Notes under the pieces: generated by a model
Database searches by the model: none
What the model saw: only the letters and a program-made list of their open reading frames with translations
Told to the model about the DNA's origin: nothing
From: Agelas oroides
Taxonomy: Eukaryota > Porifera > Demospongiae > Agelasida > Agelasidae
Reading direction: 5' to 3'
Length of the DNA: 64,000 nucleotides
Assembly: GCA_949130485.1 (NCBI GenBank)
Contig: OX422202.1
Coordinates: 5,697,216-5,761,215 of the forward strand
Position numbers and translations under genes: made by a program
Part shown: positions 9,828 through 64,000 of the stretch, piece by piece
Numbering within the stretch: the first letter of the stretch is position 1
Layout: every line of letters starts with the position of its first letter

Positions 9828-9842
9828 CTTGTTTTCTCGCAA

Positions 9843-10172: not shown

Positions 10173-10204
<32 letters not shown>

Positions 10205-15522: not shown

Positions 15523-16534
15523 GAACTGTCGTGAATGTTGCAGAGAGCAAAAGCAACGGGCAGAACCACTCATCACGTCAGAATTACCCAAACTACCTTT
15601 TCAAAAGGTGGGAACGGATTTGTTCGAATGGGAGAAGCGGAGTTACCTTCTCGTGGTTGATTATTATTCCCGATGTATTGAGATTGCATTACTGAAAAGG
15701 ACAACTGCTACTGAAGTCATTGCACACATGAAAAGTATTTTTGCGAGACATGGGATCCCTAAACTGATTGTATCGGACAATGGACCTCAATACTCGAGTG
15801 AAGAGTTTCCGAAATTTATGAGAGAGTACCAATGTCAACATGTTACCAGCAGTCCTCTGTACCCTCAAAGCAATGGTGAGGCTGAACGTGCAGTAAAAAC
15901 TATTAAAGGTCTGCTGAAGAAGGAGGGTGACCCTTATCTAGCATTGTTGTCGTACAGAGCAACTCCCTTGCAGATAGGATATAGTCCGTCCGAGCTGCTT
16001 ATGGGACGTAAATTGCGGACTACAGTCCCAACCACCAGAGAACAACTCATTCCGAGAGTTCCAGATAGCACACTTATTTGTGGATTGAATGTAATAGCTC
16101 TACAAAGCACATTTCATGTTAAGGGTTACATTAGAAATGTTACTGCATATGGCAATACTGGAAGCATCCTTCTCAGGATTAATTGCAAAGCGGCAATTCA
16201 AGCAACACAAGTTCACTCTACAGGAGGGGATCATTATGGCTTTCGCTTGGAATTTATAGGAGAGACCACCAACTGCAGGTCGCAGGTCATTTTTCACATG
16301 TCACATAGTTACTTTGGCAGGAACAATGTAGGTGCATTAATTAATTTTGTGTTTATAACCTATTTTGTCAGGGTGAAACTAGAAAACATCACTGTGGAAA
16401 ATAACAGGCAAGCATTAGAAGTGTTAGATATGAACCATGGCTCAGTCCTCATAATGGAAAATGTAAATATTAATCACAACACGGGACCACTAGTAATCAT
16501 CTCAGAAAAATCATTTATTGAATTTCATGGGTAA
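15515..16534 (+). pseudogene. Chimeric frame: gypsy integrase core fused to array gene A ectodomain
   Basis: The first 188 codons are a Ty3/gypsy integrase core with the DDE residues in VGTDLFEW, VSDNGPQY and NGEAERAV. From about 16081 the same frame becomes beta-helix ectodomain sequence of array gene A (LNVIALQSTFHVK.., SYFGRN). It ends at TAA 16532-16534, where the close copy D has TAC at the same codon. The join is in frame for about 150 codons. No signal peptide is present, so a surface product is unlikely. It could be a chance fusion or an assembly join. Confidence 0.8.
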
Positions 16535-19312
16535 AACACTTTCACTAAAAATGATTGTACAGATTTAGTATACTCAGCTCTGTATATGTGGAAGTGCAAT
16601 GCGATATTTTATGGCAATACAACATTCCTGCAAAACAAAGGTACGGATGGTGGTGCAGTTTATGCAAAAGATGCTGTGATTAACTTTCAAGGAAGTGTAA
16701 TGTTCCTGGAAAACAAAGGAGGGTATGGTGGTGCACTGATGCTGTATCAGAATGTATCAGTTGTTATTGGACAATTCGCTGAAGTTAGTTTTGTGAGAAA
16801 CCATGCCAAAACATCTGGTGGTGCAGTTTATGCCAGAGATTCTCAGATTGTAATAACTGGACAAAATCTCTCATTTGTGGAAAATGAAGGTTATGATGGT
16901 GGAGCTGTGACCTTGTTTAGTGGCTCTACCCTATACCTAGGGGAAAACAGTAGTATCACATTTGTAAGCAATCATGCTTACCGCTATGGTGGTGCAGTGC
17001 ACTATGTGGATGATTACACTGAAGATTTTGAACCAGCAGCGGAACTAAGTAAGTGCTTTTACGGAATATTCATTAGAAAATCTTCACCCACACCGACAGA
17101 TTTAAATTATATTCTTGAGTACACTTTACATAGCATAGAAATTGAATTTTACAACAATACAGCTGGGTTTGCTGGAAGTGTAATTTTTGGTGGTTGGGTA
17201 GATCTCTGTAAGTTGTACATCAACCACAAAATGACAATTTTTCATGAATATCGTATCATATTCCATCTGACTTTAATTTTTGATAGTTTGTTTCACTTCC
17301 ACCAGTCCACACAACAAGTATCACTCATATCGTCTTATCCAACGCGTGTATGTTTGTGCACTAACATGTCCATCCCTGACTGTAGTATTACTGAGTATAC
17401 TATCACAGCCTATCCTGGAGAGACATTAACAATACCTGCAGTTGCTGTAGGACAGAGGTTTGGAACAGTACCATCTACTGTGCACAGTATCTTTGTAACA
17501 AGAGACAAGGGTAGACTTTCAGTACTACTGCCACCACAGTATACACAGTTAGTGAACGTCAACTGCACTAATCTTATGTACACTATTCTGTCACCACCCA
17601 ATAGCACTGAGGATATGGAATTAACAGTTGAAAAGCATAATGTACCACAAAATGTGGTTATAAAGAATGCACTGAAATACAATTTGCATGTAAACAAAAC
17701 CTCCATCAATTTGCAATTTTCAGAGCTTACTGTACATATTGAAGTACGACTGTGTCCATTGGGATTTGTGTTCAACAACAACTCTCAGACTTGCATTTGC
17801 CATCCAAAACTTCAGCAACATGAAATCAACTGCAGCATTGATACTCAAACAGTCTACAGGAGAAGTCCACTTTGGATAAATGCAACATTTCTCAATGAAA
17901 CTTACACTCAAGTACTTGTTCACAACCACTGCCCATTTGACTACTGCAAGGATGGAAACATTCAACTCAACATGGAGTACCCAGATGAACAGTGTGCTCT
18001 CTCTCGTTCTGGTGTTCTGTGTGGATCATGCCAACAGAATCTCAGCCATGTCTTGGGTACCTCTAACTGCAAAGAATGCAGTTCACACTTTCTCTTGCTT
18101 ATTCCGGTCTTTATTGTTGCAGGAATTGTTTTAGTGGTCTTCCTAATGCTTCTCAATTTGACAGTTTCCGTTGGAACAATCAATGGGCTCATCTTCTATG
18201 CCAATATTGTCAGAGCTAACCAAGCCATTTTCTTCCCTCAAGGTACCAACAATCAATTCCTCAGCATCTTCATAGCATGGCTCAACTTGGACTTGGGAAT
18301 TGAGACTTGCTTCTACAGTGGTCTTGATGCTTATGCTAAGACATGGCTGCAGTTCCTATTCCCAGTGTACATCTGGATCATAGTGGTACTGATCATTGTA
18401 TCAAGCCACTACTCCACAACTGCTGCAAAGCTGAGTGGTAGAAATGCTGTACAAGTGTTGGCTACACTGTTCCTGTTATCGTATGCAAAGCTGCTGCGTA
18501 TTACAATCACTGCTTTCTCTTTCACCCTACTTGAGTATCCAGATGGCTCTGTCAAGAGGATATGGCTTTACGATGGCAATGTAGACTACCTGAAAGGCAA
18601 ACATATTGCACTCTTTGTAGCTGCTCTACTACTGCTTGTGTTCATCTCCCTTCCTTACACAGTGGCACTGTTGTTCATACAATGCTTGCAGTACAGGTCA
18701 AGGTACAGAATACTGGCTTGGGTTAGGAGACTGAAGCCTCTCTTTGATGCCTACACTGGGCCTTACAAGGACAAACATCGCTACTGGCCTGGACTTCTTC
18801 TAGTTGTACGTGTTGTACTCTTCCTCATCTTTTCATTGAATGTGTTTGGAGACCCAGCCGTCAGCCTTCTGACTATCATTGTCACTACCTTCTGCATTTA
18901 TTTTTCCACAATTACCTTTGGTGGCATCTATAAAACGATTGGACTGAACATCATTGAGTATTCGTTCTTTCTCAACCTGGGAATTCTCTCATCAGCCACG
19001 CTATTCACTACACAGACTGACAGAGACCAAGCTGCTGTGGTGTACACATCTGTGGCCATTGCTTTTACCACTTTCATGATCATTACTGTCCACCATATAC
19101 TGGTGAGGGTGACCAAGCAACAGCAGAGACAAATGATTACAGAATGGGCCTTCTCAAAACTGAAAACAATTAAAACCACTGTAAAGGGAAAGAATAACCA
19201 CAATGACCAGAATGACCAGAATAACCAGAATAACCAGAATGACAACATTCAACAAGCAAACTTCAACCGATTTATTGAACTGCGTGAACCGCTATTGGAG
19301 AGTGCTACTTGA
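16081..19312 (+). pseudogene. Array gene A, 5' truncated, one nonsense codon
   Basis: This copy lacks the signal peptide and roughly the first 240-270 codons, replaced by the gypsy remnant. It is closest to copy D. After the TAA at 16532, an open frame of 908 codons (16586-19312) holds the GGAVYA coils, the Cys-rich module (CPFDYC..GVLCGSC..CKECSS, 17930-18090), all membrane segments (from about 18088) and the tail ending ELREPLLESAT. The C-terminal half is intact and nearly identical to the other copies. Translation from an internal Met would give a protein without a signal peptide. It could still act as a donor in gene conversion. Confidence 0.85.
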
Positions 19313-20550: not shown

Positions 20551-21325
20551 ACATTAACCACAACACTTGAACAATTTTGGATCTAGTCTTTTGAAAAATC
20601 TTCTCAATGTTTGAATTTCATGGAATCAACTTATCAATAAATTCAGCATAATTATTCAGTCCTGCATATTGCAATGTGATATTTATGGTAATACCGCTTT
20701 CCTACAGAACAAAGGAAGGTATGAAGGTGGTGCAATTTGTGCAAAGAATCACAAGATAAGGAAACGCGTTGCTGTTATTGCATGGCTGAAGTTAGTTTTG
20801 TGAGAAACTATGCCCGAGAATCTGGTGGTGCAGTTTATGGTAGAGATCCCAAGTTATCATCGGTACATAAAAAAGCTCTCATTTGTGGAAAATGAAGGTT
20901 ATGATGGTGGACCTGTGACCTTGGATGGTGGTTCTAGTATATACAAACAGAGTATTACATTAGTAAGAAACCGTGCTCACCACTGTGGTGGTGCAATGTA
21001 CTGTCTGGATGACTACCATGAAGGACTATGCAGACTTGAGCAAGTGCTTCACTATACTGACTGACAGAGACCAAACTGCTGTGGTGTGCACATCTTTGAT
21101 AATTGCTTTCACCACTTTCATGATCATTAGATCCTACAATATACTGGTGAGGGTAACTAAGCAACAGCAGAGGCAAGACGTTTACAGAATGAGCCATCTC
21201 AAAATCTAAAAACAGTTAACTCCACAGTGAAGCATTTGTACAGGAAGAAAATATCTCAAATAACTACCTTCAACCAGCAAACTGCAACCCGAATTACGTG
21301 ATCATTGTTGGAGAGTGTTAATTGA
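20551..21325 (+). pseudogene. Array gene relic 1, heavily decayed
   Basis: Beta-helix fragments are visible (ttgcaatgtgatattt segment, LSFVENEGYDGG, GGA coils). They jump directly from the AELSKCF-like coil to the last membrane segment (TDRDQTAVV) and a degraded tail, so the Cys-rich module and most of the membrane part are deleted. Many frameshifts. The same junction occurs in relic 2 (57008-57588). Confidence 0.8.
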
Positions 21326-21584: not shown

Positions 21585-22446
21585 AGGTATCTTCCCACTT
21601 CGTCAATTCCCACTTTGTCAATTCCCACTTCGTCAATTCCCATTTGGTCAACTTCCCACTTCGTCAATTCCCACTTTGTCAATTCCCATTTGGTCAATGT
21701 TGACAAAGTGAGAATTGACAAAGTGGGAATCGACAAAGTGGGAAGTTGACGAAGTGGGAAGATTTACCATTGTATATACTTCTAACCACTGTTATAGATC
21801 AGTGAATTCATGGGACACTTGTTCCAGCTTGAAGCTTTTATCTCAAGTCTTGATTATCAATACCTTTCAGTTGGTAGGGGTATAAAAAGCCATTCGTTAC
21901 AGTAACTGTATCAAGGTTCAGCATTGTATTGAGATGGCCCAAGCAACATTTGTGGAGACTTCAAAAGGACGACGATCAATTGTCCATGAAGGCTACATTT
22001 ACCAGAAGATACGAGAGAATGTTGAGTGGTCTTGGTGGAGATGCAAAGATCGTGCCTGATCTTGCAGCAGTCCAACTTGATGCTGGATCGCAGCCACCCA
22101 GGCGAAGGAGAAAATACATTGCTGTAGACCAGCATTTGAAACTTCTTAACATATGTTGGTGGTGAAAAGACTATTGACCGATACATTGTCGGCGTTGCAT
22201 ATAACTTATCTAGCTTTGTATAATAACTTTTGCCTGTACAGTAGAGATATATAGATATTGATGTGTATTTCTAGTTCATATGGACAGTATCACATTTTTC
22301 AATTAGATGGTAAATCTTCCCACATCGTCAACTTCCCACTTTGTCAATTCCCATTTCGTCAATTCCCACTTTGTCAACATTGACCAAATGGGAATTGACA
22401 AAGTGGGAATTGACAAAGTGGGAAGTTGACCAAATGGGAATAAACC
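21585..22446. mobile_element. Element with palindromic ends carrying a FLYWCH-like fragment
   Basis: Bounded by 7-bp repeats caagtac (21578-21584 and 22447-22453). The paralogous spacer at 57823-57829 has a single uninterrupted caagtac. Each end is a block of ttcccacttygtcaa-type units and their reverse complements, so the ends fold on themselves as well as on each other. The middle holds a short plus-strand FLYWCH-like coding piece, which points to a Mutator-like (MULE) relationship by inference. Confidence 0.8.
21934..22059 (+). pseudogene. FLYWCH-type zinc finger fragment inside the mobile element
   Basis: A 41-codon frame starting MAQATFVETSKG reads RRSIVHEGYIY followed by WSWWRCKDRA and a TGA. 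The spacing of G-Y, W and WWRC matches the first half of a FLYWCH zinc finger. The frame stops where the second Cys and the His pair would follow. FLYWCH domains are frequent in Mutator-like transposases. It is too short to be a functional protein. Confidence 0.6.
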
Positions 22447-22789: not shown

Positions 22790-22918
22790 ACTGTTGCTGG
22801 TTGTTAATGTATTTTTGTTTGGTTCAATCACATTGTTGCAAGAAAGACAATAGCATATTGCAACTCATATAGTACAGCTAGGGTAGCCATCCTTGGGTAC
22901 AGCACATAGCTAAGTCCA
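22790..22918 (+). promoter_or_regulatory. Conserved 5' flank of gene B (B/H class)
   Basis: Nearly identical to 58190-58296 upstream of H (tcaatcaca..gttgcaagaaagacaatagcat, tagccatccttgggtacag). Conservation and position just before the start suggest promoter or 5' UTR; no core element is identified. Confidence 0.35.
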
Positions 22919-22987
22919 TTGAAGAGTTCTCACTTAAGACTGTGGCAAACCAGAAAATATCCTAAAACCGAAGCTGCAAAGTATAAC

Positions 22988-25900
22988 ATGACTTCTGAGA
23001 CTTCCTGTGGAATCCTGCTGGTGCTGGGTTTACTGGCTCTTGTTCAACTCCATTTCACAGGATCATCTGGAACTGGTACCAGCACAAGTGAGTTCTCCAT
23101 TCTGCCCAACTCTAACACTCCCTGTCCTATGAGGCCTTGCTACACCCTCTCTCAAGTTATGGACAATCCCTCAAACTACTTCACTTCCAATACAACAGTG
23201 ATGTTTCCTCCAGGGCAGCATGAAGTTAGCACTGAAGGTCAGCTAGTCATTCAGAATGTCAACAACATCTCCCTAGTTGGAGACAGTAATGACAGTACCA
23301 TGATCAAGTGCACAGGACAGTTTGGTCTTGCCTTCATTAACATCACAAACCTGACTCTCTCAAAACTTTACTTTTCAATGTGTGGAGCTCCAATATCTAG
23401 TGCTTTACACTTACCAACAAGCCTCAGTGAAATACTACATTTTCGTACTGCTCCAATATTTTCTATCTACCTAGTGGGTGTCACTATCCTCATTGCCACA
23501 GAGGTTGGCATATTTCACTCCAATGGAATGGGATTGCTGGGTGTTAACATATTTGGAGTGTCTTCTATCCACCAAGCAGTGTTTGTTAATAACACACCAA
23601 ACTGTGCAATTGTGTTTCTGGACAGCTACTCTCCAATGGAGACTCCAGTTCTGTACATCACTGATTCAGTATTTATACTTGGAACAGTGAGTAGTGTTGA
23701 CTACATTTATATTGCAGCTGGATTGAACATAATTTCCATTCAAACCACATATCGTGTTAAAAGTTACATTAGAAATATCACAACATCTGGCAACACTGGA
23801 ATATTATATGGCAATATTCTCCTCAGGATTAACTGCAAAGTGGCAATTCAAGTAACAGAAGTCAACTGTACTGGAGGGTACTATAATGGCTTTTCCTTGG
23901 AATTCATGGGAAATTTCACTAACTGCATCTCACAAGTTGAAGTCACAAGTCATTTCTATATGTCACATAGTTACTTTGGCAGAAACAGTGTTGGTGCATC
24001 AATGTATTTTCATTCTATCATCTATTCTCTCTATGTAAGACTGAAAAATATCACTGTCGAAAATAATAGCCAAGCATTGCTGGTATTCACAAATCCCAGC
24101 TCAGTCCTCATAATGGAAAATGTAAACATTAATCACAACATGGGACCACTAGTAATTGCCTCCTTACAGCAATCTTCAATGGTAGAATTTCATGGGTCCA
24201 ACACCTTTGCTGATAACAATTGTACAGATTCAGCATATCCAGCCTTACATCTGAGCCATTGCAGTGTGACATTTCATGGCAATACTACATTTCTGCAGAA
24301 TAAACATAGGCATCATAATGGTGGTGCAATTTATGCCGATAATGCTGAGATAAACTTCAAAGGAAATGTAGTGTTGATGAAGAATGAAGGAGAGTATGGT
24401 GGTGTACTCCATGCAGAAGGTGCTGATATAATCTTCCAAGGTAGAGTGGAGTTCCTAAAAAACAAAGGTAGATATGGTGGTGCAATATATGCAGAAGATA
24501 CTCAGATAACTTTTCAAGGAAATATGACATTTCTGGAAAATGAAGGAGGGTATGGTGGTGCTTTAGTACTATATCAGAATGTATCAGTTGTTATTGGACA
24601 ATTTGCTGAAGTTAGCTTTGTTAGAAACCGTGCCCAGGAGTCTGGTGGTGCAGTTTATGCTAGAGATTCACAAATTGTGATCACAATTGGACAAAAGTTC
24701 TTATGTGCAGAAAATGAAGGTTATAATGGTGGAGCTATGACCCTGACTGGTGATTCTACCCTATACCTAGAGGCAAACAGCAGTGTTGTGTTTGCAAGCA
24801 ACCATGCCTACCACTATGGTGGTGCAATATACTATGTGGATGATTACACTGAAGATTTTGGATCAGCAGCAGAACTAAGTAAGTGCTTCTACGGAATTAT
24901 TAGCACAGAAATAACATTTAAAATCCCACCTGAATTAAAAGATATTTTTAATTACACAAAAAAGGAACACATATCCATTCAACTTCACAACAATACAGCT
25001 GGGTTTGCTGGAACTGCCATTTATGGTGGTTGGATAGATCTCTGTAAGTTTCATACATTCGTTATGAAATACCAATACTCATTTTTGATACTCAACTATG
25101 AACCTGACATCTCTCAAACATCAATATTTGATAGTTTGTTTCACTTCCACCAGTCCACTCAACAACTATCACTCATATCTTCTAATCCAACACGCGTATG
25201 TTTGTGCACTAACATGTCCATCCCTGACTGCAGTATCACTAAGCACACTGTCACAGCCTATCCTGGAGAGACAATAACAATACCTTCAGTTGCTGTAGGA
25301 CAGAGGTTTGGAACTGTACCATTCATCACAGTGCACAGCAGCTTTGTATCAGGAGGCAGTGGCAGACTTCCAGAACTACAGTATACACAGTTGGTGAATG
25401 TCAACTGCACTAATCTTATGTACACTATTCTTGCATCACCCAATAAAGCTGAATTCATGAAACTAACAGTTGAGAAACATAACATTCCACATGCCAAGGT
25501 GGTAAATGAAGCACTGGAATATAAACGAACCCTCATCAATTTACAATTTTCAGAGCTTACTGTACATATTGAAGTACGAACATGTCCACTGGGATTTGTG
25601 TTCAACAACAGCTCTCTGACTTGCATTTGTCATCCTAAACTTCAGCAACATGAAATTAACTGCAGCATTGATACTCAAACAGTCTACAGGAGAAGTCCAC
25701 TTTGGATAAATGCAACTTTTCTCAATGAAACTTGCATTCTAGTACTTGTTCACAACCACTGCCCATTCGACTACTGCAATGATGGAGACATTCAACTCAA
25801 CATGGAGCATCCAGATGAGCAGTGTGCTCTCTCTCGTTCTGGTGTTCTGTGTGGATCATGCCAACAGAATCTCAGCCATGTCTTGGGGACCTCTAACTGC

Positions 25901-46400: not shown

Positions 46401-46555
46401 AGAGGTTTATACAATGGACCATCTCAAAACTGAAAAGAATTAAATCCACAGTAGAGAGAAAGAAATACCAGAATGACCAGGATAAACACATTCAACCAGC
46501 AAACTTCAACCGATTTATTGAACTGCGTGAACCACTATTGGAGAGTGCTACTTGA
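43489..46555 (+). pseudogene. Array gene E, 5' truncated, one frameshift
   Basis: Begins inside the ectodomain (NYGLVLES.., HSYFGRNS) directly at the rearrangement junction. It has one coil unit, the Cys-rich module (CPFDYC..GVLCGSC..CKECSS) and the membrane part. At about 45820 an extra G in the PDGS codons, compared with all other copies, shifts the frame; the remaining 240 codons continue in the next frame to ELREPLLESAT at 46555. Both halves are otherwise open. Lack of a signal peptide and the frameshift make it a pseudogene. Confidence 0.88.
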
Positions 46556-47617: not shown

Positions 47618-48803
47618 ATCTCAGTCATGTCTTGGGCAGTACTAGCTGCGAAGAATGCAGTTCACACTTTCTCTTGCTTATTCCTGTCTTTATTGCTGCA
47701 GGAATTGTTTTAGTGATCTTCCTAATGCTGTTCAATTTGACAGTCTCAGTAGGAACAATCAATGGGCTCATCTTCTATGCCAATATTGTCCGAGCAAACC
47801 AAGCCATTTTCTTCCCCCGTGGTACGAACAATGAATTCCTCAGCATCTTCATAGTGTGGCTCAACTTGGACTTGGGGATTGAGACTTGCTTCTACGGTGG
47901 TCTTGATGCTTATGCTAAGACAGGGCTACAGTTCCTATTCCCAGTGTACATCTGGATAATAGTGGTAGTGATCATTGTATCAAGCCTCTACTCCACAACT
48001 GCTGCAAAGCTTAGTGGCAGAAATGCTGTACAAGTGTTGGCTACACTGTTCCTGCTATCATATGCAAAACTGCTATGCGTTACCATCACTGCTTTTTCCT
48101 TCACCCTACTTGAGTATCCAGATGGCTCCATCAAGAGGGTATGGCTTTACGATGGCAATGTGGACTACCTGAAAGGCAAACATATTGCACTCTTTGTAGC
48201 TGCTCTACTACTGCTTGTGTTCATCTCCCTTCCTTACACAGTGGCACTGTTGTTCATACAATGCTTGCATGCAGTACAGGTCAAAGTACAGAATACTGGC
48301 CTGGGTCACTACTGGCCTGGACTTCTCCTAGTTGTTTGTGTTGTACTCTTTCTTGTCTTTTCAGTGAATGTGTTTGGAGACCCAGCCATCAGCCTTCTGA
48401 CTAGCATTGTCACAACCTTCTGCATTAATTATTTCACAATTACTGTTGGAGGTGTTTTAGGAGCATTGTATCGGACATGATAGAATATTCATTCTTCCTC
48501 AACTTGGGAATTCTCTCCTCAGCTACGCTGTTCACTACACTGACTGACAGAGACCAAACCACTGTAGTGTACACATCTGTGGCCATTTCTTTAGCTATTT
48601 TCATGATCATTACTGTCCACCATATACTGGTGAGGGTGACCAAGGAACAGAAGAGGCAGAGGTTTTCAGAATGGGCCATCTCAAAACTGAAAACAATTAA
48701 ATCTGCAGTAAAGAGCCAGAATGATCAGAATAACCCCTGTCAACCAGCAAATATCAACCCATTGATTGAACTATGTGAACCACTATTGGAGAGTGGTAAT
48801 TGA
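47618..48803 (+). pseudogene. Array gene F, C-terminal membrane fragment with deletions
   Basis: Family homology starts abruptly in the Cys-rich module (LSHVLGSTSCEECSSHF), joined directly to spacer DNA at acaaaagatctcag. So the ectodomain was removed by one deletion. Within the membrane part a 4-bp duplication (gcttgcatgcag) and loss of the VRRLKPLFDAYTGPY loop leave the frame restored. A further frameshift at about 48475 separates the last membrane segment and tail, which ends LIELCEPLLESGN with Cys instead of Arg. It cannot encode a normal receptor. Confidence 0.87.
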
Positions 48804-51908: not shown

Positions 51909-51965
51909 TTGTGGCAAGCATCCTACCCTGAGACCAGAAGCCATATCAAAGCTGCAAAGTATAAC

Positions 51966-54900
51966 ATGACTCTCAAGCCTTCCCTTGGAATCCTGCTGGT
52001 GCTGGGTTTACTGGCTCTTGTTCAACTTCATTTCACTGCATCATCTGGAACTAGTACAAGTGAGTTCTCCATTCTGCCCAACTCCAACACTCCCTGTCCT
52101 ATGAGGCCTTGCTTCACTCTCTCTCAAGTTATGGACAACCCCTCAAACTACTTCACTTCCAATACAACAGTGGTGTTTCCTCCAGGGCATCATGAAGTTA
52201 GCACTGAAGGTCAGCTAGTCATTCAGAATGTCAACAACATCTCCCTAGTTGGAGACAATAATGACAGTACCATGATCAAGTGTGTAGGGCAGTTTGGCCT
52301 TGCCTTCATTAACATCACAAACCTGACTGTCTCAAGGCTCTCCTTTTCAATGTGTGGAGCTGCAATGTTAAATGCTTCACTGCTACCAAGAAAGCTATTT
52401 TTTGAAACAATATTCTATTTTATTAGGTTTACTTTTAGTATTCCATCATTTCCTTCCACATTTTCCATCTACCTGTTCAACATCACTAACCTCACTGCCA
52501 CCAAGTTTGGTATATCTCACTCCAAAGGGATGGGGTTGCTGGGTGGTAACATATTTGGAGTGTCTTCCATCCAGCAAGCAGTGTTTGTTAATAACACGCC
52601 AAATTGTGAAATTGTATTTCTAGATGGCCATTCTCCAGCAGCAAACCCAGTTCTGTATATCACTGACTCATTATTTATGCTTGGAACAATAAGTGGTCTT
52701 AGCTCTGCTAACTATCGCATTGCAGCTGGATTAAACATAATAGCTATACAAACTATGTATCATGTTGAAAGTTACATTAGAAATGTTGTTACTCATGGCA
52801 ATACTGGCAATATACTCCTCAGGCCTGGCTGTGAAGATGAAATTCAAATGATACAAGTCAACTGTACTGAAGGGCATATTTATAGCTTAGCTGTATCCCA
52901 AGGTACTTGCAACTCATACATGAATAACAGGTCAGCCCTCATAATGGAAAATGTGAACATTAATCGCAATGCGGGAACATCCTTCATAAGTCAAGTGACT
53001 GTTAACTTTCATGGGTCTAACACTTTTACTGAAAATGATAGTACAGATTCAGCCCTCAGTCTCAGACATTGCAGTGTGACATTTAATGGCGATACCACAT
53101 TTTTGCAGAACAAAGGTAGGTATGGTGGTGCAGTGTATGCAGAAGATACTGAAATATACTTTCAAGGAAGTGTAGTGTTCCAGGAGAATGAAGGAGAGTA
53201 TGGTGGTGCAGTGTATGCAGAAGATACTGAAATATACTTTCAAGGAAGTGTAGTGTTCCAGGAGAATGAAGGAGAGTATGGTGGTGCATTAATGTTGTAT
53301 CAGAATGTATCAGTTGTTGTTGGACAATTTGCTGAAGTTAGTTTTGTGAGAAACTATGCTCAAGAGTCCGGTGGTGCAGTTTGTGCTAGAAATTCAAAAG
53401 TTATGATCACAAGTGGACAGAATCTCTCATTTGTAGAAAATGAAGGTTATGATGGTGGAGCTATGACCTTGGTTGATGATTCTACTATATTCTTAGAGGC
53501 AAATAGCAGTACCACATTCATAAGAAACCATGCCTACCACTATGGTGGTGCAATATACTATGTGGATGATTACATTGAAAATTTTGAACCAGCAACGAAA
53601 CCAAGTAAGTGCTTTTATGGAATCTTTATTACAAAACTTCCAGCTATTAGGACTACTTTTGAAAATGTTTTGAATCACATAATGAATTATACAGATGTTG
53701 AATTTTACAGCAACACAGCAGATTTTGCTGGAACTGCCATTTATGGTGGTTGGGTAGATTTCTGTAAGTTCTATATCAAATACAAAATGCATATTTTTCA
53801 TCAGCATCATATCTATCAAAATGTAGCTTTTGATAGTCTGTTTCAATTCCACCAACCTACACAACAACTATCACTCATATCCTCTAATCCAACACGCATA
53901 TGTTTGTGCACTAACATGTCCATCCCTGACTGCAATATCACGGAGTACATAATCGTAGCCTATCCTGGAGAGACATTAAAAATACCTGCAGTTGCTGTAG
54001 GACAGAGGTTTGGAACTGTACCAACCACTGTGCATAGTAGCTTTGAATTGAGAAGCAAGAGCAGACTTTCAGCACTACAGTATGCACAGTTAGTGGATGT
54101 TAACTGCACTAACCTTTTGTACACTATTCATTCATCACCCAACAGAACTGAAGCTATGAAATTAGCTGTTAAAAAACACAACATTCCAGAGAAAAAAGCC
54201 CGAAAGGAGGCACTGTATCAGCCAAAAACTGCTCTTGAAATACTAATGACACTGAGCAAGAATTTCGATTCAGTACTGAGAGAATACATGAAACTGCAAT
54301 TTTCAGAGCTTACTGTACATATTGAAGTACGAACATGTCCACTGGGATTTGTGTTCAACAACAAATCTCAGACTTGTATTTGTCATCCTCAACTTCAGCA
54401 ACTTGAAATCCGCTGCAGCATCGGTACTCAAACAGTCTACAGGAGAAGCCCACTTTGGATAAATGCAACATTTCTCAATGAAACTTACACTCAAGTACTT
54501 GTTCACAACCACTGCCCATTCGACTACTGCAATGATGGAAACATTCAACTCAACATGGAGCACCCAGATGAACAGTGTGCTCTCTCTCGTTCTGGTGTTC
54601 TGTGTGGATCATGCCAACAGAATCTCAGCCATGTCTTGGGCAGCTCTAACTGCAAACAATGCAGTTCACACTTTCTCTTGCTTATTCCTGTCTTTATTGT
54701 TGCAGGAATTGCTTTAGTGGTCTTCCTAATGCTGCTCAATTTGACTGTTTCAGTGGGGACAATCAGTGGGCTCATCTTCTATGCCAATATTGTCAGAGCT
54801 AACCAAGCCATTTTCTTCCCTCAAGGTACCAACAATAAATTCCTTAGCATCTTCATAGCATGGCTCAACTTGGACTTGGGGATTGAGACTTGTTTCTACA

Positions 54901-55886
54901 GTGCCCTTGATGCTTATGCTAAGACATGGCTACAGTTCGTATTCCCAGTGTACATCTGGATTATAGTGGTACTGATCATTGTATCAAGCCACTACTCTAC
55001 AACTGCTGCAAAGCTCAGTGGCAGAAATGCTGTACAAGTGTTGGCTACACTGTTTCTGCTATCGTATGCAAAACTGCTACGCATTACCATCACTGCCTTC
55101 TCTTTCACCCTACTTGAGTATCCAGATGGCTCTGTCAAGAGGATATGGCTTTACGATGGCAATGTGGAGTACCTGAAGGGCAAACATATTGCACTCTTTG
55201 TAGCTGCTCTACTACTGCTTGTGTTCATCTCCCTTCCTTACACAGTGGCACTGTTATTCATACAATGCTTACAGTACAGGTCAAGGTACAGAATACTAGC
55301 TTGGGTTAGGAGACTGAAGCCTCTGTTTGATGCCTACACTGGGCCTTACAAGGACAAACATCGCTATTGGCCTGGACTTCTTCTAGTTGTGCGTATTGTA
55401 CTCTTCCTCATCTTTTCAGTGAATGTGTTTGGAGACCCAGCCATCAGCCTTCTGACTATCATTGTTACTACCTTCTGCATTTATTATTTTACAATCACTG
55501 TTGGAGGCGTGTATAAAAAGAATGTACTGAACAACATTGAGTATTCCTTCTTTCTCAACCTGGGAATTCTCTCCTCAGCCACACTATTCACTACACTGAC
55601 TGATAGAGATCAAACCGCTGTGGTGCACACATCTGTGGCCATCGCTTTAGCCACTTTCATGGTGATTACATTCTACCATATACTGGTGAGGGTGACTAAG
55701 GAACAGCAGAGACAGAGGTTTAGAGAATGGGTCATCTCAAAACTCAAAACAATTAAAGCCACTGTAAAGGGAAAGAATAACCAGAATAACCAGAATGACC
55801 AGAATAACCAGAATAACCACATTCGACAAGCAAACTTCAACCAATTTATTGAACTACGCGAACCGCTATTGGAGAGTGCTACTTGA
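51966..55886 (+). CDS. Array gene G: beta-helix multi-span membrane protein, intact (1306 aa)
   Basis: The start at 51966 (MTLKPSLGILLVLG) opens with the signal peptide; an in-frame ATG at 51909 (MWQASYPET..) would add 19 residues. The ectodomain lacks the block with SYFGRN..VKLENITVENN found in B, C and H, an in-frame loss near residue 320. It has two identical 26-residue coils (53124-53279). Unlike C it has a long insert (KKARKEALYQPKTALEIL) before the QFSELTVHIEV strand. The Cys-rich module precedes membrane segments from about residue 902. The tail has a long Asn/Gln repeat coded by aataaccag units and ends ELREPLLESAT. No introns or breaks. Function unknown; the family logic is as for B and C. 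Confidence 0.9.
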   Translation: MTLKPSLGILLVLGLLALVQLHFTASSGTSTSEFSILPNSNTPCPMRPCFTLSQVMDNPSNYFTSNTTVVFPPGHHEVSTEGQLVIQNVNNISLVGDNNDSTMIKCVGQFGLAFINITNLTVSRLSFSMCGAAMLNASLLPRKLFFETIFYFIRFTFSIPSFPSTFSIYLFNITNLTATKFGISHSKGMGLLGGNIFGVSSIQQAVFVNNTPNCEIVFLDGHSPAANPVLYITDSLFMLGTISGLSSANYRIAAGLNIIAIQTMYHVESYIRNVVTHGNTGNILLRPGCEDEIQMIQVNCTEGHIYSLAVSQGTCNSYMNNRSALIMENVNINRNAGTSFISQVTVNFHGSNTFTENDSTDSALSLRHCSVTFNGDTTFLQNKGRYGGAVYAEDTEIYFQGSVVFQENEGEYGGAVYAEDTEIYFQGSVVFQENEGEYGGALMLYQNVSVVVGQFAEVSFVRNYAQESGGAVCARNSKVMITSGQNLSFVENEGYDGGAMTLVDDSTIFLEANSSTTFIRNHAYHYGGAIYYVDDYIENFEPATKPSKCFYGIFITKLPAIRTTFENVLNHIMNYTDVEFYSNTADFAGTAIYGGWVDFCKFYIKYKMHIFHQHHIYQNVAFDSLFQFHQPTQQLSLISSNPTRICLCTNMSIPDCNITEYIIVAYPGETLKIPAVAVGQRFGTVPTTVHSSFELRSKSRLSALQYAQLVDVNCTNLLYTIHSSPNRTEAMKLAVKKHNIPEKKARKEALYQPKTALEILMTLSKNFDSVLREYMKLQFSELTVHIEVRTCPLGFVFNNKSQTCICHPQLQQLEIRCSIGTQTVYRRSPLWINATFLNETYTQVLVHNHCPFDYCNDGNIQLNMEHPDEQCALSRSGVLCGSCQQNLSHVLGSSNCKQCSSHFLLLIPVFIVAGIALVVFLMLLNLTVSVGTISGLIFYANIVRANQAIFFPQGTNNKFLSIFIAWLNLDLGIETCFYSALDAYAKTWLQFVFPVYIWIIVVLIIVSSHYSTTAAKLSGRNAVQVLATLFLLSYAKLLRITITAFSFTLLEYPDGSVKRIWLYDGNVEYLKGKHIALFVAALLLLVFISLPYTVALLFIQCLQYRSRYRILAWVRRLKPLFDAYTGPYKDKHRYWPGLLLVVRIVLFLIFSVNVFGDPAISLLTIIVTTFCIYYFTITVGGVYKKNVLNNIEYSFFLNLGILSSATLFTTLTDRDQTAVVHTSVAIALATFMVITFYHILVRVTKEQQRQRFREWVISKLKTIKATVKGKNNQNNQNDQNNQNNHIRQANFNQFIELREPLLESAT
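53124..53279 (+). repeat. Exact tandem duplication of a 78-bp coil unit in gene G
   Basis: 53124-53201 and 53202-53279 are identical base for base. Each encodes one 26-residue beta-helix turn starting GGAVYAEDTEIYF. The absence of any difference indicates a very recent duplication or homogenisation. Confidence 0.97.
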
Positions 55887-57007: not shown

Positions 57008-57588
57008 AGCATTGAGTTCACATTAACCACAACACTGGACCATTGGGGATCTAGTCTTTTGAAAAATCTACAATGGTTGAATTTCATGCATGGAATCAAC
57101 TTATCAATAAATTCAGCATAATTATTCGGTCCTGCATATTGCAATGTGATATTTATGGCAATACCGCTTTCCTACAAAACAAAGGAAGGTATGAAGGTGT
57201 GCGGTTTGTGCAAAGAATCACGAGATAAGCTTTTAAGGAAACGTATTGCTGTTATTGCATGGCTGTAGTTAGTTGAAGACAGACTACACTGACTATGCAG
57301 ACTTGAGCAAGTGCTTTTATGGAATTCACTATACTGACTGACAGAGACCAAACCACTGTGGTGTGCACATCTGTGATGATTGCTTTATACTGGTGAGAGT
57401 AACTAAGCAACAGCAGAGGCAGAGGTTTACAGAATGAGCCATCTCAAAAGCTAAAAACAGTTAACTCCACAGTGAAGCATTTGTATAGTAAAAAAAATAC
57501 TTCAAATGACCAGAATAACTGCCTTCAACCAGCAAACTGCAACCCTTTGATTGAATTATGTGAGCCACTGTTGGAGAGTGGTAATTGA
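57008..57588 (+). pseudogene. Array gene relic 2, heavily decayed
   Basis: Counterpart of relic 1, with the same internal join from the LSKCFYGI coil to the last membrane segment (TDRDQT) and a degraded LIELCEPLLESGN-like end. It is more deleted in the coil region than relic 1. The shared join shows that the relic existed before the block duplication. Confidence 0.8.
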
Positions 57589-58189: not shown

Positions 58190-58296
58190 TTGATGGTTCA
58201 ATCACAGTGTTGCAAGAAAGACAATAGCATTATTGCAACTCATATAGTAGAGCTTGGTAGCCATCCTTGGGTACAGCACATAGCTAGCTAAGTCCA
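58190..58296 (+). promoter_or_regulatory. Conserved 5' flank of gene H (B/H class)
   Basis: Near identity to the flank of B (22790-22918), including ccatccttgggtacagcacatagcta. Inferred promoter or 5' UTR. Confidence 0.35.
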
Positions 58297-58365
58297 TTGA
58301 AGAGTTCTCACTTAAGACTGTGGCAAACCAGCAAATACTCCAAAATCAAAGCTACAAAGTACAAC

Positions 58366-61300
58366 ATGACTCTCAGAGGATTCCTGCTGGTGCTGGGTTT
58401 ACTGGCTCTTGTTCAACTTCATTTCACTGCATCATCTGGAACTAGTACACGTGAGTTCTCCATTCTGCCCAATTCCAACACTCCCTGTCCTATGAGACCT
58501 TGCTACACCCTCTCTCAAGTTATGGACAATCCCTCAAACTACTTCACTTCCAATACAACAGTGGTGTTTCCTCCAGGGCATCACGAAGTTAGCACTGAAG
58601 GTCAGCTGGTCATTCAGAATGTCAACAACATCTCCCTAGTTGGAGACAATAATGATAGTACCATGATCAAGTGTATAGGACAGTTTGGCCTTGCCTTCAT
58701 TAACATCACAAACCTGACTGTCTCAAAACTCTCCTTTTCAATGTGTGGAGCTCCAATGGATGCTTCACAGCTAGCAACAAACTTAACACATTCATTTCTT
58801 TTTCTGCAACTTCGCTCTGTAGTATCCATCTTATTGTTGGGCATCACTAAACTCATTGCCACCAATTTAGGAATACATCACTCTAAAGAAATGGGACTGC
58901 TGGCTGTTAACATATTTGGAGTATCTTCCATCCAGCAAGCAGTGTTTGTTAACAACACACCAAACTGTGCAATTGTGTTTCTGGACAGCTACTCTCCAAC
59001 AGCAACTCCAGTTCTGCATATCACTAACTCATCATTTATGTTTGGAACTGTGAGTGGCACTTATTCCGGTTTTGCTGCTGGATTAAGTATTGTAGCTGTA
59101 CAAACCATGTATCATGCTAAATGTTACATTGAAAATGTTACTGCATATGGCAATACAGGAAGCATATATGGAAATATGTATTTCAACATTAACTGCAAAA
59201 TGGTCCTTCAAGTTACACGAGTCAACTCGACTGAAGGGCATCATAATGGCTTAGTCTTGGACTTCAATGGAGATTCCACTAACTGCATTTCGATTGAAGC
59301 AACAAGGCATTTTTACATATCACATAGTTACTTTGGCAGAAACACTGTGGGTGCAACCCTGTACATCAGATACTCTGTCTGGCTGGAACTAAAAAACATT
59401 ACTGTAGAAAATAATAGCAAAATATTCAATGTGTTCATAACATACAATTCAGTCTTCACAATGGAAAACGCAAACTTCACTCACAACATGGGACAATTGC
59501 AGATCAGTTCCTTTGGAAAATCTTCAATAGTTGAATTTTATGGATCCAACACTTTTGCCTATAATAACTGTAAAGAGTCAGCATATCCAGTGCTACATCT
59601 GATGCAAGGAAATGCAACATTTCATGGCAACACAACATTCCTGCAGAACAAAGGTAGGTATGGTGGCGCAATTTGTGCACAGGATGCGGAAGTAAACTTT
59701 CAAGGAAACGTAAAGTTCCTGTATAATGAAGGAGAGTATGGAGGTGCATTACTGCTATATCAGAGTAATGTATCAGTTCTTAATGGACAATTTGCTGAAG
59801 TTAGTTTTGTGAGAAACCATGCCCAGGAATCTGGTGGTGCAGTTTATGCTAGAGATTCACAACTTGTGATCAGTGTTGGAAAAAAGCTCTCATTTGTGGA
59901 AAATGAAGGTTATGATGGTGGAGCTATGACCCTGACTGGTGATTCTACCCTATACCTAGAGGCAAGCAGCAGTGTTGTGTTTGCAAGAAACCATGCTTAC
60001 CACTATGGTGGTGCAATATACTATGTGGATGAGTACACTGAAGATTTTGGACCAGCAACAGAACTAAGTAAGTGCTTTTATGGGATAATTAGCACAGAAG
60101 TTGCATTCATAAACTTTAATGATTTAAGTGATGTTTGTACTTACATAAAAAGGAAACACACATCCATTCAACTTTACAACAATACAGCAGGGTTTGCTGG
60201 AACTTCAATTTATGGTGGTTGGGTAGATTTCTGTATGTTCTGTATCAACTACGAACCTTTTTTAGTAAATCTTATTTATCAGAGTTCATTATTTGATAAT
60301 TTGTTTCATCTTCACCAGTCCACACAACAACTATCACTCATATCTTCTAGTCCAACACGCATATGTTTGTGCACTAACATGTCCATCCCTGACTGCAGTA
60401 TCACTGAGCACACTATCACAGCCTATCCTGGAGAGACATTAACAATACCTGCAGTTGCTGTAGGACAGAGGTTTGGAACTGTACCATCTACTGTGCAGAG
60501 CAGATTTGTACCACGAAGCAAAGGCAGACTTCTGGCACTACAGTATACACAGTTAGTGAATGTTAACTGCACTGATCTTCTGTACACTATTCATTCACTA
60601 CCCAATAGAACTGAAGCTATGGAATTAACAGTTGAGAAACACAATCTCCCACAAAACAGGATTATAAATAAAAGGCTGAAAGATATTAAAGTAAACAAAA
60701 CCATCATTAACTTACAATTTTCAGAGCTTACCATAAACATTAAGGTACAACTATGTCCACTGGGATTTGTGTTCAACAACAACTCTCAGACTTGCATTTG
60801 TCATCCTAAACTCCAACAACATGAAATCAACTGCAGCATTGATACTCAAACAGTCTACAGGAGAAGTCCACTTTGGATAAATGCAACATTTCTCAGTGAA
60901 ACTTACACTCAAGTACTTGTTCACAATCACTGCCCATTCGACTACTGCAATGATGGAAACATTCAACTCAACATACAATACCCAGATGAACAGTGTGCTC
61001 TCTCTCGTTCTGGTGTTCTGTGTGGATCATGCCAACAGAATCTCAGCCATGTCTTGGGGACCTCTAACTGCAAAGATTGCAGTTCACACTTTCTCTTGCT
61101 TATTCCTGTCTTTATTGCTGCAGGAATTGCTTTAGTGGTCTTCCTAATGCTGCTCAATTTGACAGTCTCAGTTGGGACAATCAATGGGCTCATTTTCTAT
61201 GCCAATATTGTCAGAGCTAACCAAGCCCTTTTCTTCCCCCATGGTACCAACAATCAATTCCTCAGCATCTTCATAGCATGGCTGAACTTGGACTTGGGGA

Positions 61301-62280
61301 TTGAAACTTGCTTCTACAGTGACCTTGATGCTTATGTTAAGACATGGCTACAGTTCGTATTCCCAGTGTACATCTGGATTATAGTGGTAGTGATCATTGT
61401 ATCAAGCCACTACTCCACAACTGCTGCAAAGCTTAGTGGTAGAAATGCAGTACAAGTGTTGGCTACACTGTTCCTGCTATCGTATGCAAAACTGCTACGC
61501 ATTACCATCACTGCTTTCTCTTTCACCCTACTGGAGTATCCAGATGGCTCTGTCAAGAGGATATGGCTTTATGATGGCAATATGGACTACCTGAAGGGCA
61601 AACATATTGCACTCTTTGTAGCTGCTCTACTACTGCTTGTGTTCATCTCCCTTCCTTACACAGTGGCACTGTTGTTCATACAATGCTTGCAGTACAGGTC
61701 AAGGTACAGGATACTGGCCTGGGTTGGGAGACTGAAGCCTCTGTTTGATGCCTACACTGGGCCTTACAAGGACAAACATCGTTACTGGCCTGGACTTCTT
61801 CTAGTTGTACGTGTTGTACTCTTCCTTGTCTTTTCGGTGAACGTGTTCGGAGACCCAGCCATTAGCCTCCTGACTATCATTGTTAGTAACTTCTGCATTC
61901 TTTTTTTCTCGATTAATTTTGGAGGCATCTATAAAAACTGTGTCCTGAACTTTATAGAGTATTCCTTCTTTCTTAATCTGGGAATTCTCTCCTCAGCTAC
62001 ACTATTTACTACACTGACTGACAGAGACCAAGCTGCTGTGGTGCACACATCTGTGGCCATTGCTTTTGCCACTTTCATGATCATTACTTTCTACCATATA
62101 CTGGTGAGGGTGACCAAGGAACAGCAGAGACAGAGGTTTACAGGGTGGACTATCTCAAAACTGAAAACAACAAATATCACAATAAAAAATAACCCAAATA
62201 AGCAGAATGACTATCTTAAACCAGCTAACCACAACCCTTTGATTGAACTACGTGAGCCACTATTGGAGAGTGCCAATTAA
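58366..62280 (+). CDS. Array gene H: beta-helix multi-span membrane protein, intact (1304 aa)
   Basis: The start at 58366 (MTLRGFLLVLGLLALVQLHF) gives a signal peptide; the upstream in-frame ATG at 58297 adds a 23-residue MKSSHLRLWQT.. peptide shared with B. The ectodomain has one coil unit, then GGALLLYQ, LSFVENEGYDGG and GGAIYYVDEYTEDF. It differs strongly from the other copies at residues about 130-160 and 320-370. The Cys-rich module has CKDCSS where others have CKECSS. Membrane segments begin at about residue 908; WVGRLKP replaces WVRRLKP. The tail is shorter in Asn/Gln and ends LIELREPLLESAN. Single exon, no breaks. Related copies lie upstream, and the next copy to the right faces it. 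Confidence 0.9.
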   Translation: MTLRGFLLVLGLLALVQLHFTASSGTSTREFSILPNSNTPCPMRPCYTLSQVMDNPSNYFTSNTTVVFPPGHHEVSTEGQLVIQNVNNISLVGDNNDSTMIKCIGQFGLAFINITNLTVSKLSFSMCGAPMDASQLATNLTHSFLFLQLRSVVSILLLGITKLIATNLGIHHSKEMGLLAVNIFGVSSIQQAVFVNNTPNCAIVFLDSYSPTATPVLHITNSSFMFGTVSGTYSGFAAGLSIVAVQTMYHAKCYIENVTAYGNTGSIYGNMYFNINCKMVLQVTRVNSTEGHHNGLVLDFNGDSTNCISIEATRHFYISHSYFGRNTVGATLYIRYSVWLELKNITVENNSKIFNVFITYNSVFTMENANFTHNMGQLQISSFGKSSIVEFYGSNTFAYNNCKESAYPVLHLMQGNATFHGNTTFLQNKGRYGGAICAQDAEVNFQGNVKFLYNEGEYGGALLLYQSNVSVLNGQFAEVSFVRNHAQESGGAVYARDSQLVISVGKKLSFVENEGYDGGAMTLTGDSTLYLEASSSVVFARNHAYHYGGAIYYVDEYTEDFGPATELSKCFYGIISTEVAFINFNDLSDVCTYIKRKHTSIQLYNNTAGFAGTSIYGGWVDFCMFCINYEPFLVNLIYQSSLFDNLFHLHQSTQQLSLISSSPTRICLCTNMSIPDCSITEHTITAYPGETLTIPAVAVGQRFGTVPSTVQSRFVPRSKGRLLALQYTQLVNVNCTDLLYTIHSLPNRTEAMELTVEKHNLPQNRIINKRLKDIKVNKTIINLQFSELTINIKVQLCPLGFVFNNNSQTCICHPKLQQHEINCSIDTQTVYRRSPLWINATFLSETYTQVLVHNHCPFDYCNDGNIQLNIQYPDEQCALSRSGVLCGSCQQNLSHVLGTSNCKDCSSHFLLLIPVFIAAGIALVVFLMLLNLTVSVGTINGLIFYANIVRANQALFFPHGTNNQFLSIFIAWLNLDLGIETCFYSDLDAYVKTWLQFVFPVYIWIIVVVIIVSSHYSTTAAKLSGRNAVQVLATLFLLSYAKLLRITITAFSFTLLEYPDGSVKRIWLYDGNMDYLKGKHIALFVAALLLLVFISLPYTVALLFIQCLQYRSRYRILAWVGRLKPLFDAYTGPYKDKHRYWPGLLLVVRVVLFLVFSVNVFGDPAISLLTIIVSNFCILFFSINFGGIYKNCVLNFIEYSFFLNLGILSSATLFTTLTDRDQAAVVHTSVAIAFATFMIITFYHILVRVTKEQQRQRFTGWTISKLKTTNITIKNNPNKQNDYLKPANHNPLIELREPLLESAN

Positions 62281-63957
62281 CTTGAAGTTGTAGATATAAT
62301 GGTGTATTGCAAAATTTTGTTTTCTTTTGTGTTAACAAATTAATTAAAATTTTCCCCTTGATCCCAATGACATACATGTAGTTACTCTGCATGGCTACCT
62401 GCAGATGGGGGGAAAGAAGTTCAGCCATCGTTGGACATGAATAACCAACCATTTTCATGTTGAAAGTAGCCTGTCAGAATATCCAGTGCATAGCACTGGT
62501 TTGTAGCTAATCTATTATACAGAAGTCTGTACCAATATCCATGGTTGTTAACTGCTTAGAAATAATCATCAAAATATGTAGGTATCCAGTTTCACTACAT
62601 CAAAGGACATTGGCAGATCTTACTAGAATCTGTTCATGGAACACCTAGAGCCTGTGCCAATGTGTAAAGAACACTTCCCTAATCATTAGCCATTCATTGC
62701 ACAGGACAGTTGGGCAAATTTTGTGGAGTAAGCGACTGGGTATGTACAGTGTGGAATTGACATCATGTAAACTACGCAAATTTTAATAGTAAACTGCACC
62801 TAAGAGAGGATCCTGAATGATTAGGAGTACTAAGATCAACTATCTCTAGCATCAAGCCAAATTGGTGAGTGGGAGTAGATGCTGTTGCTGGATGGATCTA
62901 GTTAAAAAAACACACAGTAAACTGATCTAACAACCAAACCTATAATAAAGATGTTGGCATCAAATGTTGTCAAGCTAGGGTCTAAGTCACAGTGCAGTAG
63001 TCAAGAAGGCAATGTCTTTGTAATTCTACATACCACACGGAGTCAGTTCTCCGGCTTGTCTAGAAGGCTTTTTCAAACACAAGTATCTCTCATGCTAAGC
63101 TGTGTGAGAACTGTCTGAATTCTCTCATAAAGGGAAAAAATCTGTAGTAGGATTGAGTAATTGAAAGTTACCTTCAACACTAGCACATCTAGCTTCAACA
63201 CAGCACCAGGACTTCCATAGGTGATCTATATAAATGTATTATTTATACTTTGTGTATACAATTTGCAGTATGCCTCCCCATACCAATGTGATTGAAACAT
63301 GTTATACCTGACATAAAATACAGCACCTGTTCCTGGACTTACCAAGATATGTTTAATGTTGAGAGTTGTCATAATACTTACTGCGTTGTAAACTAGCTAA
63401 ACTGCTGCCATGTTCAGAGAATTCAAACCAAATCTTCTCTCCCTTGAATACTCTGGCAGAGAGTCCCTATGTTACAAGCAATTCTCAGTCTGTGCTGCTT
63501 GAAGGTGAACCTAGTATCCAGTATGAGGCTATTCTTGCTGTGGCATTTGTGGCCCAAGAAGATGAAGAGAAGTGGATACCATTTGCAGATGGGAGTGAAG
63601 ATGAGTATGATATACTAAATATCTAAGTGGATGTAAAAAGAGTACTAGAGTATAGTGAATGTGTGTAATATCACAGTGATAATGTAAGTGGGTGACTAAT
63701 GTACACTCATTCCTAGGTTAATTTGACATAGCTAATATCGCTCAGACAACTCCAACTTGGAGCCACATTGGAGGTCCAGTGATCTTTTCACTAGGGAACG
63801 ATGAGAGGATTCATCAGGTCCAGTATCTACAAAATGTGTTCACATATGATTATATCACACACACACTCTTGTGTATTTACAAAGTCAAATGTGTTTACAA
63901 ACAGACACAAAGTTGAAATAGGGCAAATTTTGTTTATGTTTGCAAGTTGATGTACTT
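62281..63957. other. Spacer between gene H and the oppositely oriented next copy
   Basis: Mostly unlike the other spacers. One possible small exon is listed separately. Near the right end, gcaagttgatgtac (63941-63954) is the reverse complement of the 3' flank of relic 2, as expected downstream of a minus-strand copy. Confidence 0.5.
63464..63626 (+). CDS. Possible terminal exon of an unrecognised gene
   Basis: After an acceptor-like ctctggcag the frame reads ESPYVTSNSQSVLLEGE and ends in a strongly acidic tail (QEDEEKW..GSEDEYDILNI) before TAA. The composition looks like real protein, but no family is recognised and no partner exon was found. It could also start at an in-frame ATG at 63444. 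Treat as a weak prediction. Confidence 0.25.
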
Positions 63958-64000
63958 TTATTCAATAAATTTAGCACTCTCCAACAATGGCTCACGTAGT
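63958..64000 (-). CDS. 3' end of a further array gene, opposite strand (partial)
   Basis: The minus strand reads LREPLLESAKFIE and a TAA at 63960-63958. This is the family's conserved C-terminal peptide with three extra residues before the stop. The gene continues beyond the window, so its integrity is unknown. It converges on gene H, unlike all other full copies here. Confidence 0.82.
   Translation of the reverse strand, partial: LREPLLESAKFIE

Follow-up and report, generated by a model that had tools for sequence, protein, structure and literature searches.

Here we describe a tandem array of very large receptor-like genes in a stretch of 64,000 nucleotides from the sponge Agelas oroides (GenBank assembly GCA_949130485.1, contig OX422202.1, positions 5,697,216 to 5,761,215 of the forward strand; hereafter the window). 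Each gene is predicted to encode a protein with a beta-helical ectodomain, a Cys-rich module and a polytopic membrane domain. The original prediction, made from the sequence of the window, listed four intact genes of 1.3-1.4 thousand residues, four damaged copies, two relics and one convergent copy, and this inventory holds. The stop-to-stop frames of the intact genes give proteins of 1304-1375 amino acids (aa), their coding parts are without introns in all four cases, and a search of the window with the proteins (tblastn) recovers the damaged copies and both relics (Table 1). The convergent copy has its stop within the window and an open frame that continues outside it. In addition, an inverted fragment of the membrane domain, absent from the prediction, sits between two damaged copies and is about 94-96% identical to most of the aligned copies; it is perhaps the trace of a local inversion or of template switching. 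In the 190 kb examined around the window, intact, damaged and relic copies are mixed on both strands (C20:5.618-5.765 Mb), and birth and death of copies was computed for the family.

Table 1. Copies of the receptor family in the window, with the parts of intact gene 1 (window numbering; aa, amino acids; dS, silent divergence, pooled over the C20 cluster).
Feature	Position	Strand	Remarks
Intact gene 1	frame 22910-27115; ATG 22988; coding sequence 22988-27115	+	1375 aa; one coding exon
Gene 1, leader and N-terminal cap	22988-23311	+	aa 1-108; 'constant' end, dS 0.12-0.13
Gene 1, variable beta-helix (predicted)	23312-25237	+	aa 109-750; Chlam_PMP coils; dS 0.27-0.84
Gene 1, juxtamembrane module	25241-25399	+	aa 752-804, ...YPGET...VAVGQRFGTVP...; less variable, dS 0.19
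Gene 1, Cys-rich module	25583-25915	+	CPLGF...CSS; sub-threshold DUF7630 likeness
Gene 1, polytopic membrane domain (predicted)	25916-26941	+	seven clear hydropathy peaks; nine spans as read from loop charges
Gene 1, C-terminal motif ELREPLLES	27080-27106	+	RE[PS][LV]L in 24/25 members examined
Intact gene 2	frame 29583-33668; ATG 29676	+	1330 aa
Intact gene 3	frame 51909-55886; ATG 51966	+	1306 aa
Tandem duplication in intact gene 3	53120-53288	+	perfect 78 bp (26 aa, one coil), 2.2 copies at 100%, in-frame
Intact gene 4	frame 58288-62280; ATG 58366	+	1304 aa
Damaged copy	16081-19309	+	lacks its 5' end (junction with gypsy-type pol); a single in-frame stop
Damaged copy	39949-42940	+	frameshift; ends within membrane domain
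Damaged copy	43438-46555	+	5' truncated; frameshift
Damaged fragment	47596-48800	+	membrane half; frameshift
Relic	20666-21291	+	tblastn
Relic	57016-57585	+	tblastn
Convergent intact copy, 3' end	63958-64000	-	runs to ~67839 in window numbering; frame C20:5761176-5765057
Inverted membrane-domain fragment	42936-43488	-	between two damaged copies; tblastn

The FxxN/GGA beta-helix repeats claimed for the ectodomain are recognised by two profile models. The NCBIfam model TIGR01376 lies above its cut-off in all four intact proteins (E 7.4e-20 to 4.4e-8), and the Pfam model PF02415 (Chlam_PMP) does so in three of them (E 3.6e-15, 9.5e-11 and 1.3e-12), with the fourth slightly below the cut-off (E 1.3e-3). 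These Pmp-repeat matches are far beyond chance. The predicted signal peptide corresponds to a hydrophobic run at the N-terminus and is a reading of hydropathy. Structure prediction, which had been put forward as a check, gave a model of the ectodomain that is usable in its middle part only: it has regular beta coils, of moderate to good confidence, at ectodomain residues 303-575 (predicted local distance difference test, pLDDT, of 55-90 by block) and is poor elsewhere (mean over the whole model 47.5). It did not succeed for the membrane half, where the AlphaFold2 model from five window sequences has a mean pLDDT of 35.7. Searching with the ectodomain model in Foldseek gave no match at E<=0.001 among 67 (best 0.32), and the weak matches listed are largely beta-helix proteins, judged by title. 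The ectodomains of the four intact genes carry 21-23 N-glycosylation sequons each. The Cys-rich module is present in every intact protein, as predicted, and it weakly resembles DUF7630 (PF24633) in 16 of 17 members; since the best E is 0.036 and the scores stay below the curated 27-bit cut-off, we treat this likeness as a lead and not as membership.

Scanned for hydropathy, the family alignment gives seven clear peaks and two weaker stretches in the membrane domain. The loop at 313-345 is the most positive (mean 7.6 Lys and Arg against 1.9 Asp and Glu), and the C-terminal tail is positive as well (10.6 against 4.4). A count of nine spans places this loop and the tail inside and the ectodomain outside, and for this reason we read nine, although seven is also possible; eight or nine had first been proposed. 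In 17 members the membrane half has no Pfam match that exceeds its cut-off (E<=5), four proteins give no NCBIfam match besides the repeat, and a sequence-profile search with the membrane domain gave no match in the PDB (E<=10).

The predicted ELREPLLES tail recurs as a C-terminal RE[PS][LV]L in all but one of the proteins examined, the exception being a copy that loses its reading frame upstream of the tail. The conserved leucine motif, together with the bacterial diet of sponges, would suit receptors for the capture of particles or bacteria, phagocytic or endocytic proteins whose sticky beta-helices are internalised with what they bind, as has been proposed for trichomonad Pmp proteins. However, the motif differs from the canonical acidic dileucine signal [DE]xxxL[LI], which occurs in one of the 25 tails (last 60 residues), and a polytopic domain exceeds the needs of an endocytic receptor, so that we regard capture as a somewhat unlikely account.

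To place the window in its genome, we searched for the family in all 141 contigs (259.3 Mb) of the host assembly. Wnt genes lie at three places of this assembly, with one further weak fragment, and gave matches in 0 of 14 control genomes, in support of an animal host. One full-length member as query gave 33 scored candidates, and a third full-length member gave 32, mostly absent from the earlier lists. The 512-aa membrane half of another subfamily gave 84 candidates, all of them scored, and each of three conserved pieces of 118-120 aa gave at least 150 candidates, the 150 scored all having E < 1e-42. The union of four of these searches (the membrane half, the third full-length member and two of the short pieces) comes to at least 236 places on 25 contigs (some positions rounded), to which the third short query adds 28. 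The tandem array is real in the window, but the system as a whole is not one array: the family occupies at least 264 places on 25 of the 141 contigs, a lower bound that includes fragments and damaged copies and into which the 33 candidates of the first full-length query are not merged. Open frames of at least 1000 aa are kept at 106 of the 150 scored places in one of the short-query searches. PF02415 was rejected as a genome-wide query for counting the family, being too short (one match). Four distant members were fetched, of which three are complete and have the same plan by sequence reading and the fourth is partial. In a second subfamily, PF02415 lies above cut-off in two of three members scanned and below it in the other. 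Members of this subfamily also stand in tandem on contig C1 at 30.69-30.70 Mb (L028:8112-9632 and L028:3480-5012). Similar uncharacterised proteins may exist in other sponge genomes and perhaps in those of cnidarians.

The membrane half had been described as nearly invariant, and at the amino-acid level this is so: identity to the first copy is 87-88% in five window copies, and the ectodomains of four window copies are 66-70% identical. However, divergence is low at the silent sites of the membrane half too, which the prediction had missed. Among the four window genes the silent divergence (dS) is 0.11-0.22 in the membrane half, 0.32-0.91 in the parts of the helix and 0.22-0.42 in the linker. 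Across the 45 pairs formed by ten C20-cluster members the median is 0.16 in the membrane half versus 0.47 in the helix, and the transmembrane (TM) part has the lower dS in 44 of the 45 pairs, the lone exception being a mosaic pair described below. Pooled over the same pairs, dS is 0.13 and 0.12 over aa 1-108, rises to 0.27-0.84 over aa 109-751, and is 0.19 over aa 752-804, 0.64 over aa 805-853, 0.26 over aa 854-905 and 0.10-0.19 over aa 906-1217; beyond aa 1217, to the tail, it is 0.28, 0.18 and 0.44.

The same pattern is observed outside the C20 cluster. TM dS is below helix dS in all ten pairs that include a member on contig C11 and, within the second subfamily, in 19 of 21 pairs from the same contig and 20 of 24 pairs from different contigs. 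Between the subfamilies the median dS is 2.18 in the helix and 1.90 in the TM part, both near saturation, which argues against strong constraint on the silent sites of the TM part as such. Two other causes of the alike membrane halves were set aside: purifying selection as the sole cause is ruled out by the low dS, and strong silent-site constraint is disfavoured by the near-saturation between subfamilies, although the TM part still has the lower dS in 82 of the 110 between-subfamily pairs.

Two further observations are in keeping with exchange between copies. The GC content at four-fold sites is 41.6% in the TM core versus 28.2% in the ectodomain, and is higher in the former in 21 of 21 members. 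The mosaic pair is identical over alignment columns 480-879, falls to 77-87% over columns 880-999 and then returns to 92-97%. We also applied a Sawyer-type permutation test, leaving two members out of the ectodomain set and one out of the membrane set because of gaps, and in 3 of 36 ectodomain pairs the tracts held in common were globally significant. From the low dS at both ends, the raised four-fold GC and the mosaic copies we infer that gene conversion probably keeps both ends of the gene alike while the helix diverges, and the membrane halves would then be alike partly through homogenisation and not through constraint alone. The helix changes by whole coils as well as by substitution, as had been predicted: the 78-bp duplication in intact gene 3 is a recent coil-number change.

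Tandem arrays with alike ends would also be expected of a self/non-self code for allorecognition or cell identity, in which the beta-helices of neighbouring cells make homophilic or pairwise contacts and each cell expresses a subset of the genes, as in clustered protocadherins, and the evolutionary signature is akin to that of the protocadherin clusters (PMC1852091). Since the members lie on 25 contigs and not at one locus, we hold such a code to be quite unlikely. The repeats themselves raise another origin, because they are typical of chlamydial surface proteins: a Pmp-like gene may have been gained recently from bacteria or viruses, with amplification in the host afterwards. When the membrane half was looked for, starting from two short peptide patterns each time, there were 6 pattern stretches in IMG/VR viral contigs and 40 in GTDB species genomes, with none confirmed in either. 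No Pfam or NCBIfam model of an autotransporter beta-barrel matches in four proteins, whose C-terminal half is hydrophobic by hydropathy, and the silent saturation between the two subfamilies argues that the family is old. We consider a recent gain highly improbable.

A raised dN/dS in the ectodomain, compared with the membrane half, had been proposed as a check. It is raised, with median pairwise values of 0.44-0.60 in the ectodomain parts against 0.24 in the Cys module and 0.17 in the TM core, but no ectodomain domain averages above 1, even though single pairs reach 1.18. The last spans have a median of 0.36 and the tail 0.48. A median above 1 is found in the 43-codon leader only (1.53 in nine pairs with the C11 member, with few silent changes). 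We compared the site models M8 and M8a for 11 members with one tree per region, and all regions are significant [twice the log-likelihood difference (2dlnL) of 107.9 for the N-terminal helix, 34.3 for the PMP part, 42.7 for the linker and 13.7 for the membrane half]. With local trees, 2dlnL for the N-terminal helix is 61.9, with 16% of sites at an omega of 2.6 and 24 sites identified (90-codon windows, 10 members, one truncated member left out); the corresponding values are 10.3-15.0 for the PMP part, 6.8 for the linker and 6.8-7.1 for the membrane half. The 24 sites are somewhat less hydrophobic than the remaining variable positions (0.38 vs 0.48). These results support diversifying sites located mainly in the N-terminal helix, with recombination as a caveat; in the other regions the signal under local trees is weak.

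Part of this could also be expected of adhesion or housekeeping proteins under relaxed constraint, in which neutral drift and recombination shape the helix and the signal of selection is an artefact of recombination. The many damaged copies agree with such a view, as do a helix dN/dS of 0.3-0.7 and the fall in site-model support with local trees. It does not sit well with the N-terminal helix, which retains its 2dlnL of 61.9 under those trees, with the long frames kept at 106 of 150 places, or with the likeness of both flanks, but not of the helix, at silent sites. We find relaxed constraint an unlikely explanation on balance.

The explanation that we prefer is that these genes belong to a very large family of animal surface receptors, each encoded by a single exon, with a variable helix outside and a shared membrane module, which on the sequence evidence we give a slightly better than even chance of being right. 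The leader would send the N-terminal beta-helix outside the cell, the Cys-rich stalk would connect it to the conserved polytopic membrane domain, with its nine spans as read here, and a short cytosolic tail would terminate in the RE[PS][LV]L motif. The helix may serve as a recognition surface for many external ligands, whether microbial, from food particles or conspecific, and the membrane domain with the tail may serve all members as a common module for output or sorting; variety would then arise from the number of paralogues that feed into one output, by analogy with odorant receptors or clustered protocadherins. Gene conversion would lock the ends while the helix diverges, gains or loses whole 26-aa coils and has sites with an excess of amino-acid change. 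Recognition appears to be the likeliest role, and external ligands such as microbes and food particles are slightly preferred over self-recognition, given the dispersal of the members and the bacterial diet of sponges; the self/non-self code and the capture receptors are narrower versions of this same explanation. The further claim that hundreds of intronless genes constitute an undescribed class of animal receptors, with concerted ends, a diversifying helix and a shared output module, is one that we advance tentatively, as a possibility.

Several results weigh against a recognition family of this kind. The Pfam repeat is found in only one of the three complete distant members, and for two of these sequences (L034 and L036) the beta-helix is a sequence reading. 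Of the 45 membrane pairs only one has significant Sawyer-type tracts, and for this reason it is mainly the dS that argues for homogenisation of the membrane half; with regard to dS, the TM part remaining the lower in most between-subfamily pairs means that some silent-site constraint may add to its low value. The two subfamilies share the GC contrast, for which there could be causes other than gene conversion. On average, dN/dS in the parts of the helix is only 0.3-0.7, and because 2dlnL shrinks with local trees, recombination inflates the support from site models, which may retain some of this inflation even with local trees. The membrane half too gives a weak M8 signal, and the site models were run in custom code without a benchmark. 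Finally, because the model of the membrane domain is unusable (pLDDT 36), it is conservation that suggests an output module.

The surroundings of the genes contain mobile elements and repeats. A remnant of a gypsy-type pol at 13100-16080 (RVT_1 and RNase H in frame 13435-15030) abuts the damaged copy that starts at 16081, and a reverse transcriptase open frame at 37318-38730 (RVT_1), LINE-like (long interspersed nuclear element) by sequence reading, lies among the receptor copies. Two inverted arms of 527 bp each, 98.7% identical, at 34340-35477 may represent a fold-back element of recent origin. At 21592-22441, upstream of the first intact gene, a 15-bp repeat (TTCCCACTTCGTCAA and its near-complement) forms mirrored arrays, and the upstream flanks of eight intact copies are alike mostly in their last 100 bases (mean identity 0.66, gapped alignments). 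An open frame at 8166-9869 on the reverse strand carries a zinc ribbon (PF13240) and contains 16.8 copies of a 39-bp repeat (8613-9267) that encodes a Pro/Gln/Thr-rich stretch; at 10173-10454 a run of 30 G is followed by 12.6 copies of a C-rich 15-bp repeat.

Sponges have neither neurons nor adaptive immunity. A large germline-encoded recognition repertoire, possibly a code for identity or for microbes, would bear on how an early-branching animal discriminates bacteria, food, symbionts and self. These would be receptor genes of one coding exon in which gene conversion homogenises the constant parts, apparently even across contigs; they occupy at least 264 places in one animal genome, and their membrane domain matched no Pfam model or PDB profile in the searches made here. 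The constant-variable-constant pattern yields a prediction as to the part that recognises and the part that responds, one that domain swaps could test. In the literature searched on Pmp repeats, beta-helices, DUF7630 and single-exon tandem families, outside which subscription papers mostly fell, we found no account of this family nor, in line with the original prediction, of tandemly arrayed animal genes that couple a constant polytopic domain to a variable beta-helix.

Several known systems invite comparison. The SRCR and NLR repertoires of sponges have been studied as immune repertoires, with SRCR reported as massively expanded (PMC10855680, PMC12909245). Their domains differ from those described here, and the Pfam matches of ten full-length family proteins include neither an SRCR nor an NLR model. 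Likewise, no 7tm profile of G protein-coupled receptors is found by Pfam in the ten full-length proteins or in 17 membrane halves (overlapping sets), and PF06011, of the fungal-type TRP/Flc proteins, is absent from the matches of the 17 membrane halves at E<=5.

The chlamydial Pmp proteins (PF02415/TIGR01376) are similar in being a variable multigene family with FxxN/GGA repeats, which form the coils of a beta-helix (PMC11166332, PMC10715098), but instead of an autotransporter barrel, for which no model matches, the sponge proteins have a Cys-rich module with a helical polytopic membrane domain and a tail, and their host is an animal. In trichomonads, the Pmp proteins are reported as an expanded eukaryotic family with external Pmp repeats, a membrane anchor and tail motifs; a transmembrane domain is described for them and not a conserved polytopic one, and the tail signals looked for in them include the [DE]xxxL[LI] that is missing from 24 of the 25 tails here (PMC6701047).

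Clustered protocadherins resemble the sponge family in their tandem paralogues, a constant part that is probably homogenised, with raised GC, and an apparently diversified ectodomain. They are built of cadherin repeats with a single span, and some clusters share constant exons, whereas the sponge genes have one coding exon each and are spread over 25 contigs. In the protocadherin clusters, gene conversion homogenises part of the molecule while the N-terminal ectodomains are diversified, and in fugu a raised GC content at third codon positions (GC3) was taken as the mark of gene conversion (PMC1852091). A homogenised constant part of this kind is indicated for the sponge genes as well, by the low dS at both ends and the raised GC at four-fold sites.

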